Below are positions 1 to 1,418 of a stretch of 64,000 bases of DNA, one piece after another. A program made the position numbers and the translations under genes. How positions within the stretch are numbered: the stretch's first letter is position 1; each line of letters opens with the position of its first letter. Source of the DNA: Companilactobacillus formosensis (GTDB taxonomy: Bacteria; Bacillota; Bacilli; Lactobacillales; Lactobacillaceae); NCBI RefSeq assembly GCF_005405305.1, contig NZ_BJDU01000001.1, positions 60,791 through 124,790 on the forward strand, written 5' to 3'. Under the pieces are notes generated by a model. That model did not search any database. It was not told where the DNA came from and worked only from the letters and a program-made list of their open reading frames with translations.

Positions 1-163
1 TATGGAAGCTTTTAGTAGAGTTCCATTTTCCAGAGAAGAAGATAAGTTGCTGATTCGATTAGGTGACTTGTCTAAAAAATCGGGACTTAATGGTCGGAAT
101 CGAGCTAGCTTTGACGATAAATCTCAGTTTTACGGTTTGTTTGAAAAAATGCCTCGGCGTTAA
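1..163 (+). CDS. EntA-type bacteriocin immunity protein, 3' part only (cut by window start)
   Basis: The reading frame is open from the window edge to a TAA at 161-163, so only the C-terminal ~53 residues are visible. They include KKSGLNGRNRASFDDKSQF, which matches the conserved end of enterocin A immunity proteins (GINGLYRADYGDKSQF, family EntA_Immun). Such proteins are small cytosolic four-helix bundles that protect the producer from pediocin-like bacteriocins. The segment is nearly identical to 1229-1390. Whether the missing 5' part is intact cannot be seen. Family assignment is by remembered similarity. Confidence 0.6.
   Translation, partial: MEAFSRVPFSREEDKLLIRLGDLSKKSGLNGRNRASFDDKSQFYGLFEKMPRR
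1..163 (+). repeat. Direct repeat, copy 1 (partner 1229-1390)
   Basis: Bases 2-132 are identical to 1229-1359. The remaining ~30 bases to the stop codon differ at five positions, all silent third-codon changes (TAC/TAT, GGT/GGA, AAA/AAG, CGG/CGA, CGT/CGC). Similarity ends at the stop codon. The copy may extend left of the window. Confidence 0.9.
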
Positions 164-500
164 AGCTGGTTACTAAAAGCTAGCGTGTCATAATAAGGAA
201 CAAATATCTGAAATTATAAAAAATACCTATCCTAAATGGTACATAGTTAAATCTTCAACAGTTCTTTTCTTTTATCTACTAAATCTAAGACTTTCTTAAA
301 CGTTATTTATGCTCTTTTTTACAAGAATAGTATATATCTCGTTAAACTAGATGCATGGATATCCGAATAACATGCACAAGGAAGGTGTAATGATTATGAT
401 AAAAAAGAACTATCAAATAAGAAATTATTGTAACTATCATTGAATTTGGAATTCGATAATTTTCAATCATTCAAAATTAAAATGAAAGGGATTCATACCG
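164..500 (+). promoter_or_regulatory. AT-rich leader region of the bacteriocin genes
   Basis: This 337-base gap lies between the first immunity fragment and the bacteriocin genes and presumably carries their promoter. A TATATA-like box sits near 330-338, but I could not find the paired direct repeats typical of plantaricin or sakacin promoters. A tiny ORF at 396-443 (15 codons, preceded by AAGGAAGG) has no double-glycine leader and may be a decayed peptide gene or chance. A purine-rich AAAGGG at 485-490 is the ribosome site of the next gene. Confidence 0.35.
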
Positions 501-656
501 TTGAAGAAGTATTATAAATTAACTAACAATAATTTAGCAAATGTTCGAGGTGGCTGGAATAAATCAGCTTTTGATGCCGGAAAAAGAGTTGGTCGCGTTG
601 CCGTTTTTGCTGCAGGATTTACCCCATGGGGAAAAGTATTGAGATACTTAAAATAA
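501..656 (+). CDS. Plantaricin E-like two-peptide bacteriocin precursor (51 aa, TTG start)
   Basis: This short gene starts with TTG at 501, ten bases after AAAGGG, and ends with TAA at 654-656. The product has an 18-residue leader ending NLANVRGG, a double-glycine cleavage site read by ABC transporter-peptidases, and a 33-residue cationic mature peptide starting WNKSAFDAGKRVGRV. Length and pattern resemble plantaricin E (FNRGGYNFGKSVRHV...), one half of the class IIb pore-forming bacteriocin PlnEF. The mature part has GxxxG-like spacing (small residues at AxxxG). The next gene, 28 bases on, encodes another double-glycine peptide and may be the partner. No transporter or quorum-sensing genes are in view. 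Relationship to PlnE is by remembered sequence, so moderately sure; that it is a bacteriocin precursor is more certain. Confidence 0.75.
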   Translation: MKKYYKLTNNNLANVRGGWNKSAFDAGKRVGRVAVFAAGFTPWGKVLRYLK

Positions 657-684: not shown

Positions 685-873
685 ATGAAAAAAATTTACA
701 AAAACAATAAATTTAATATGTTAACTGAAGAAGAACAATTAAACATAGTTGGAGGTGGACATTGTTATACAAAATCATGCTTGGCTGGTAGAGATAAGTC
801 AATCTATAATGGAGTAAGCTTTACCATGGGATTTGGTTATGGAGTTTGTCAATCAGTTGGCATCTGCAACTAG
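685..873 (+). CDS. Double-glycine-leader peptide with four cysteines (putative bacteriocin, 62 aa)
   Basis: ATG at 685 follows AAAGGA by ten bases. The leader (residues 1-24) ends LTEEEQLNIVGG, a textbook double-glycine leader. The mature part of 38 residues begins GHCYTKSCLAGRDKS and ends GYGVCQSVGICN, giving Cys pairs CxxxxC near the N-terminus and CxxxxxC at the C-terminus, so two disulfides are possible. It lacks the YGNGV box of class IIa bacteriocins and is not clearly PlnF-like. It may be the second peptide of a two-component bacteriocin with the 501-656 product, or an independent class IId peptide. It is directly followed by a small membrane protein whose ATG lies two bases after its stop, suggesting coupled translation with a self-immunity gene. 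Confidence 0.75.
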   Translation: MKKIYKNNKFNMLTEEEQLNIVGGGHCYTKSCLAGRDKSIYNGVSFTMGFGYGVCQSVGICN

Positions 874-875
874 AT

Positions 876-1043
876 ATGAGATTAAAATTCAATAAACTAT
901 TCTATAAAAATTTTAGTTTTTATATTTTTATTATGTTTCTAATTTTTAGCATTCATGCCTTTTATAAAAATAATTACTTGATTTTCGGAATTTTATTTTT
1001 AATAAGTATTGTTCAACTTATATATGCTATTTCTGATCGATGA
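876..1043 (+). CDS. Small two-helix membrane protein, possible bacteriocin immunity protein (55 aa)
   Basis: I start the gene at ATG 876, just after the TAG of the preceding peptide gene (871-873), rather than at an upstream in-frame codon inside that gene. The product MRLKFNKLFYK... has a basic N-terminus and two hydrophobic stretches (about residues 13-28 and 34-52). No family is recognised. Position immediately behind a double-glycine peptide and likely translational coupling suggest a dedicated immunity protein, as is common for class II bacteriocins with small membrane immunity proteins. Function is inference from context only. Confidence 0.55.
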   Translation: MRLKFNKLFYKNFSFYIFIMFLIFSIHAFYKNNYLIFGILFLISIVQLIYAISDR

Positions 1044-1129
1044 AACTAATATAGTGATATTCGATTTAGTCGTCCAACTATTATTAATAAAGAAAACAGT
1101 GACATTCGCATCCTGATCAATCACCTTAT

Positions 1130-1390
1130 TTGTTAAATATAACGGATGTTTTGAGTCAAGTTTATATGAAACTAGATACGGTGAAGAATCCTGAAGCATG
1201 GCTTAGTAGATTAGTGAATTATATTTACATGGAAGCTTTTAGTAGAGTTCCATTTTCCAGAGAAGAAGATAAGTTGCTGATTCGATTAGGTGACTTGTCT
1301 AAAAAATCGGGACTTAATGGTCGGAATCGAGCTAGCTTTGACGATAAATCTCAGTTTTATGGATTGTTTGAAAAGATGCCTCGACGCTAA
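1130..1390 (+). CDS. EntA-type bacteriocin immunity protein, apparently broken at its 5' end
   Basis: The frame VLSQVYMKLDTVKNPEAWLS through KKSGLNGRNRASFDDKSQF matches enterocin A immunity (VLQKVYLKLE...LVNYLY...DKSQF), a cytosolic helix bundle conferring self-protection. The frame opens at 1103, and the only usable start is TTG 1130, which has no ribosome site. An overlapping frame starting at GTG 1054 reads VIFDLVVQLLLIKKTVTFAS before TGA at 1114-1116. This looks like the missing N-terminal helix, so a single frameshift near 1103-1114 may have split the gene. The second half is a copy of the fragment at the window start. It may be non-functional; the alternative is a short protein starting at 1130. 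Confidence 0.55.
   Translation: MLNITDVLSQVYMKLDTVKNPEAWLSRLVNYIYMEAFSRVPFSREEDKLLIRLGDLSKKSGLNGRNRASFDDKSQFYGLFEKMPRR
1229..1390 (+). repeat. Direct repeat, copy 2 (partner 2-163)
   Basis: Identical to bases 2-132 over 1229-1359, then five silent substitutions up to the shared stop codon. The sharp switch from perfect identity to clustered silent differences suggests recombination or gene conversion between two immunity paralogues. Confidence 0.9.
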
Positions 1391-1418
1391 ATAATATCTT
1401 TAAAAAGAAGGACTAATT

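Follow-up and report, generated by a model that had tools for sequence, protein, structure and literature searches.

In the window, a stretch of 64,000 nucleotides from Companilactobacillus formosensis, a short TTG-started gene (alpha) is real and easily overlooked. It probably encodes one of the two subunits of a bacteriocin, a PlnE-type peptide, the other subunit being the product of the neighboring gene, beta. We put this reading at a probability of roughly 0.7; it includes the gain of the two genes as part of a cassette and the failure of this strain to secrete the pair. The features of the cassette and its surroundings are collected in Table 1.

Table 1. Features at the cassette and its insertion site, in window coordinates unless L002 is named.
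Feature	Position	Strand	Remarks
ImmA, first copy, 3' part (EntA_Immun-type)	1..164	+	5' part beyond 95 N, L002 12414-12696
Region upstream of alpha	165..500	+	one PlnC/D-like half site at 299-307; its second half is poor and the match no better than chance
Ribosome-site-like AAAGGG	485..490	+	10 bases 5' of the TTG, seen directly
alpha, putative PlnE-type precursor	501..656	+	leader 501-554, mature part 555-653, stop 654-656
beta, four-cysteine double-glycine precursor	685..873	+	leader 685-756, mature part 757-870 (GHCYTKSC..VCQSVGICN)
2TM gene, 55-residue protein with two hydrophobic segments	876..1043	+	ATG begins two bases past the stop codon of beta
ImmA, second copy, without 5' end	1102..1391	+	with the first copy, forms a direct repeat (about 290 bp)
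ImmB, intact, EntA_Immun family, 89 aa	1419..1688	+	belongs to the older immunity array

The alpha reading frame opens with TTG at 501 and comprises 51 codons, specifying a leader, MKKYYKLTNNNLANVRGG, that ends in VRGG, and a mature peptide of 33 residues, WNKSAFDAGKRVGRVAVFAAGFTPWGKVLRYLK, with a net charge of +6 and a single GxxxG motif at residues 9-13. Upstream of the TTG, the frame stays open for five codons (open frame of 56 aa) without an ATG, GTG or TTG that could serve as an alternative start. The TTG start, ribosome site, double-glycine leader and stop of the preliminary description are all confirmed on this frame, as is its 33-residue cationic mature peptide. Its warning that the gene could be missed is borne out by the curated models, since alpha scores 21.3 bits against Bacteriocin_IIc of Pfam (PF10439, cut-off 27.1) and 14.5 bits against TIGR03949 of NCBIfam (cut-off 21.5). 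Beta rises above no Pfam or NCBIfam cut-off and does not match Bacteriocin_IIc. As both peptides fall below these cut-offs, annotation with such models would overlook them. Among 150 genomes searched with alpha, own genome included, one other holds a homologue below an E-value of 1e-3, that of C. nantensis (G005; 9e-8). In C. nantensis DSM 16982, homologues of alpha, beta and 2TM follow each other in the same order, downstream (3') of an amino-acid permease that shares 95% identity with the permease beside the window cassette; this conserved gene neighborhood rules out alpha as a chance ORF.

The kinship between alpha and PlnE rests on profiles, because BLASTP gives no alignment between the two. 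Relatives of PlnE were collected with PlnE, not with alpha (9 of 397 genomes at E 0.01), and the profile was made from PlnE and four relatives with readable pairs, leaving out G401 (a second PlnE copy) as well as G232, G380, and G428, in which no PlnE-like double-glycine frame is readable. Against this profile, the mature alpha of the window scores 13.5 bits, a value reached by none of 5,000 shuffled sequences (best 12.2), and among 11 decoy double-glycine peptides the top score is 9.4, for one that itself comes from the C. nantensis contig. The alphas of C. nantensis and L. plantarum, with 1.9 and 1.6, are not significant (190 and 1,142 of 5,000 shuffles). In the reverse test with the alpha profile, scores of 13.3, 7.3, 4.8, and 2.3 were obtained for G225, G460, G389, and G415, with 0, 1, 7, and 116 of 2,000 shuffles, respectively; PlnE itself scores 0.4 and is not significant (537 of 2,000 shuffles as good). 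Comparison of the alpha and PlnE families profile against profile with hhalign yields a P of 1.1e-4 and a probability of 57, compared to a P of 0.18 for the cross control of the alpha family with the PlnF family. Searches of the PDB with alpha, A2, A1, and A4 returned no bacteriocin. We conclude that alpha is, as far as these profiles indicate, a distant member of the PlnE family, mainly from the window's own peptide and from G225. The earlier label "plantaricin E-like" is therefore largely upheld: the profile comparison it proposed gives a match where BLASTP does not, and the kinship holds for alpha, but the partner and the type of the likely immunity protein are unlike those of PlnEF. The preliminary description mentions neither the four-cysteine neighbor, nor this other candidate for immunity, nor that a double-glycine exporter was looked for in vain.

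Beta encodes a leader ending in LNIVGG and the mature peptide GHCYTKSCLAGRDKSIYNGVSFTMGFGYGVCQSVGICN, and the cassette runs in the order alpha, beta, 2TM. Two adjacent double-glycine precursors, the gene arrangement of class IIb bacteriocins, are found in the window, in C. nantensis, and on a Lactiplantibacillus plantarum plasmid, and the 2TM gene stands directly 3' of beta in these three and in Lentilactobacillus kisonensis. All four betas compared have four cysteines, spaced C-x4-C and C-x5-C, and keep GHCY-x3-C and C-Q-x2-G-x-C. GxxxG, expected in each peptide of class IIb but too short a motif to be more than weak evidence, occurs in alpha and beta of the window, C. nantensis, and L. plantarum, and is absent from the L. 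kisonensis beta. Judging from its position and hydrophobicity, the 2TM protein is likely the dedicated immunity protein; a Pfam scan found no CAAX protease in the gene after beta. A structure prediction for beta from three sequences had a mean pLDDT of 54.7 and was set aside.

BLASTP detects no similarity between beta and PlnF. The hhalign comparison of the beta and PlnF families, with G265 among the PlnF rows, gives a P of 4.6e-4 and a probability of 33, compared to 0.43 for the cross control of the beta profile. Taken singly, the window beta scores 0.7 bits against the PlnF profile (607 of 5,000 shuffles as good) and 1.7 bits once G265 is added (116 of 2,000), neither of which is significant. 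The G265 peptide, GHAYTAAAIRRNN, scores 18.9 bits against a PlnF profile from which it was left out (0 of 5,000 shuffles) and 21.9 bits against the beta profile (0 of 2,000); it is flanked by an alpha-like precursor on one side and, on the other, by an ORF that from reading alone resembles a CAAX protease. A kinship between beta and PlnF by way of this intermediate appears plausible.

The cassette, about 0.94 kb long, lies between two copies of the enterocin-A-type immunity gene ImmA, the first of them full-length across the assembly gap, which show 3 differences in 230 nt and 5 in 163 nt compared. Its GC content is 27.4% versus 37.6%, and none of 614 windows of equal size is as low. The nearest genomes by permease identity are G031, G011, and G022. 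In G031 and G022, an uninterrupted ImmB-ImmA-ImmC array with one ImmA copy represents the empty site, and the G011 contig stops after ImmB. At 18 further loci of the genus at this insertion site (four of them below 5 kb), three contain a 2TM homologue and two an exporter like that of C. nantensis; neither alpha nor beta was found at E 1e-3 in any of the 18. The insertion site is one of turnover for bacteriocin and immunity genes. The present arrangement could have arisen through one crossover with incoming DNA that carried a partial ImmA; the cassette was probably gained, and this strain probably does not export its products.

An assembly gap of 95 N (L002 12697-12791) lies immediately 5' of the window, inside the ImmA repeat. 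The same 104 repeat bases are found at the left contig end and at the window start, and because both edges share them, simple adjacency across the gap is likeliest, but extra sequence may lie inside the 95 N. The stretch on the far side (L002 7299-12696) contains immunity-type genes, several of them EntA_Immun, around a GHKL kinase and a LytTR regulator. No exporter or signal peptide was seen in it, and it resembles an immunity-only locus.

In searches that work in controls, own genome yields no match to Peptidase_C39 and none to the accessory protein model TIGR01000. Its matches to TIGR01193 start at a profile position of at least 138, past the peptidase part, and none attains the cut-off. 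Peptidase_C39 is found in 11 of the 36 genomes of the genus, own genome being among the 36. In C. nantensis, a C39 exporter (TIGR01193, 1118 bits) and an accessory protein (TIGR01000, 471 bits) adjoin the trio. The exporter and accessory protein that also mark class IIb were thus not found in own genome, which is a trait of the genome and not of the peptides. Since neither was found, this strain most likely does not secrete the pair. The assembly comprises 25 contigs, with completeness given as 99.99%, and has a gap beside the cassette, so an exporter could be unassembled.

That no exporter was found would also suit a cassette of decaying DNA without function in this strain, as would the second ImmA copy, which lacks its 5' end, and the TTG start with its modest ribosome site. 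This explanation overlaps the silent variant of our own. We regard it as rather unlikely, given that no frame of the trio is interrupted, that beta retains its four cysteines, and that the differences between the window and C. nantensis are in excess at the third codon position of beta (16, 16, and 33 at the three positions). The corresponding figures for alpha (22, 13, and 25) and 2TM (26, 16, and 31) leave the matter unclear for these two genes; on these differences, the sign of selection is clear for beta only, and it concerns the past of the family.

Among 397 genomes of the family, the beta profile matches four below 1e-3, namely own genome, C. nantensis, L. kisonensis DSM 19906 (G403), and G265. 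L. kisonensis has beta and the 2TM gene, and its alpha-like frame is cut short by a premature stop. The window beta also matches 13 L. plantarum plasmid records (best E 2e-8), 10 conjugative and 3 mobilizable, and the alpha of one L. plantarum plasmid has 100% matches in the same 13 records; the alpha-beta-2TM order recurs on the translated plasmid. Alpha is listed as hypothetical in all 13 (including L115 5812-7129), and 12 of them list no gene under beta, in a gene table that is itself incomplete. Plasmid searches with the window alpha or the cassette DNA gave no match, and viral contigs gave no confirmed one. Six of the eight plasmid regions opened out of 13 (H2, H3, H4, H7, H10, and H12) have an annotated ABC transporter for peptide export no more than 5 kb from beta; H13 has none and H1 ends at the record start. 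The exporter in L115, the one plasmid region scanned, has a Peptidase_C39 domain, and beside the trio in L115 is a 178-aa protein with a C-x-x-C motif that is weakly thioredoxin-like (PF13098, 23 bits, cut-off 27).

A two-cysteine relative was found in another genus, in G070 (L052 1-2198, minus strand). There, a protein 38% identical to the 178-aa plasmid protein is followed by a beta-like peptide, MKCYTLRCIRRRDNAYAAGLWFSFDSAN, with the first cysteine pair only, and then by a C39 ABC frame that shares 57% identity with its C. nantensis counterpart. The peptide has an E-value of 0.0018 in the beta-profile search, and no alpha was seen within the 3 kb examined. A thioredoxin-like protein beside both the plasmid trio and the G070 peptide fits a role in disulfide formation; tblastn finds no match to it in the window, in its 36 kb upstream, or in the C. 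nantensis and L. kisonensis stretches.

These relatives bear on the idea that beta is a one-peptide disulfide bacteriocin for which alpha is merely a helper or optional. L. kisonensis retains beta and 2TM although its alpha is broken, beta is better conserved than alpha (56% versus 44%), and the G070 peptide, with its thioredoxin-like protein and C39 ABC frame and no alpha in 3 kb, has led us to give this idea slightly more weight. All 13 plasmid records that match beta match alpha too, however, and alpha adjoins beta in the window and in C. nantensis, so that we hold a one-peptide bacteriocin to be quite improbable and retain the two-peptide reading.

Broader searches added few loci. Genome contigs gave no match to alpha alone, and alignment A4 retrieved C. 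nantensis and L. kisonensis along with two loci from Saprospiraceae; the latter two matched over just 11 and 15 residues and were judged to be chance. At the level of the order, A11 matched 7 of 395 genomes at E ≤0.01 and, besides own genome, only G678 below 1e-3, with two internal stops. The weak-match loci were scanned on both strands (n = 58; an earlier view of 16 covered the plus strand only), and 12 have a frame with the double-glycine pattern near the center, several of them chance-like. In G339, from reading alone, a peptide pair neighbors a frame resembling a CAAX protease. Six peptide fragments and WP_016526926 do not occur in the full texts searched, a scope that excludes subscription papers, supplements, and patents.

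About 3 kb upstream of alpha, a GHKL histidine kinase and a LytTR regulator are encoded. A pattern scan of 18 kb identified a single double-glycine candidate beyond alpha and beta, a fragment of a permease frame. Using the consensus of the PlnC/D-type box, we counted 7 sites over 8.1 kb of the strain's DNA versus 9.5 in simple shuffles, 11 versus 7.7 in C. nantensis (two of them strong), and 8 versus 2.0 in the PlnE locus as a control. Promoter-like sites numbered 10 versus 8.6 expected. That alpha acts, in the manner of PlnA, as a secreted signal to this kinase and regulator, rather than as a killing peptide, would agree with their presence in the same locus and with the scan showing no other convincing double-glycine peptide in the 18 kb, but a close relative (L098) has the same kinase and regulator without alpha, the LytTR-type boxes of own locus are not above chance, and alpha is accompanied by beta and a membrane protein, which makes a signaling role very improbable.

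The C. nantensis locus has further features of its own. Strong PlnC/D-like direct repeats, with 2 and 3 mismatches (L039 9832-9910), separate the exporter gene from two more short double-glycine peptides encoded at the end of the contig. In C. nantensis (L039 5931-6188) and in G009 (L108 2531-2779), a Cro/C1 helix-turn-helix domain is preceded, in one and the same protein, by a leader of bacteriocin type, MIELSEKDLSLIVGG; the two fusions are 90% identical over 81 residues and adjoin C39 exporter genes. A SunS-like glycosyltransferase (L039 3751-5084; TIGR04195, 121.6 bits, cut-off 350) comes after a two-cysteine double-glycine peptide, possibly an unusual glycosylated bacteriocin. On account of this SunS-like gene, beta itself was considered as a glycocin; the idea was rejected, since the gene adjoins a different peptide and tblastn with its product finds nothing in the window or its 36 kb upstream. 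No SunS-type glycosyltransferase is annotated in plasmid region L115. Glycocins have C-x6-C pairs.

Drawing on class IIb bacteriocins and on the gene neighborhood, we propose that alpha and beta would be made with double-glycine leaders, presumably from one transcript, and that a C39 ABC exporter would cut the leaders and export both peptides. Beta would form two disulfides and pair with alpha, the two permeabilizing the membranes of related bacteria while the small two-helix 2TM membrane protein shields its owner. The trio may have been acquired by recombination at an immunity gene within an older locus of immunity and two-component genes. In this strain, the pair would be silent as a weapon, be kept for its immunity gene, or await an exporter supplied by a plasmid.

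More tentatively, four-cysteine betas, PlnE-type alphas, and 2TM immunity proteins might together constitute a branch of two-peptide bacteriocins, stapled by disulfides and not described so far. It would move as a small cassette between immunity arrays and conjugative lactobacillus plasmids and also enter hosts unable to export it, perhaps to be retained there for immunity until they acquire an exporter. The window, C. nantensis, L. kisonensis, the L. plantarum plasmids, and the two-cysteine relative in G070 provide a natural test set, in food-associated bacteria, for a two-peptide bacteriocin whose second peptide is putatively held by disulfides. The empty site and the repeat offer a concrete case of the entry of a cassette into an immunity array.

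Among known systems, plantaricin EF (PlnE, PDB 2jui; PlnF, PDB 2rlw; PlnI) likewise has two adjacent double-glycine precursors. Alpha shares with the relatives of PlnE the start [FWL]-N-x-x-A-[YF]-x-x-G, the length of 33 residues, and the cationic character, and beta and the G265 peptide share with PlnF an H-x-Y near the start. Contrary to PlnF, which has no cysteines, beta has four of them and a C-terminal extension. PlnI is a CAAX protease, whereas the immunity candidate of the cassette is a 55-aa two-helix protein. Unlike for plantaricin EF, no exporter was found in the C. formosensis genome.

For such an exporterless cassette, the pneumococcal blp loci offer a precedent: bacteriocin genes are retained there without an intact exporter, blpAB being intact in 23.5% of strains and the immunity genes variable (PMC4860687). 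The likeness is one of description, blpAB being interrupted where in own genome no C39 exporter was found. Thermophilin 13 (ThmA/ThmB), as described in PMC10059821, also consists of two peptides, one of them with cysteines, and genes for thiol-disulfide oxidoreductases belong to its cluster. The comparison is again by description: ThmA has two cysteines compared to four in beta, and the thermophilin cluster contains a CAAX protease. Very short hydrophobic immunity proteins, to which 2TM is likened by description, accompany carnobacteriocin XY, brochocin, and others; PMC6957408 gives 42 aa for CbnZ, 53 aa for BrcI, and 55 aa for AbpIM.
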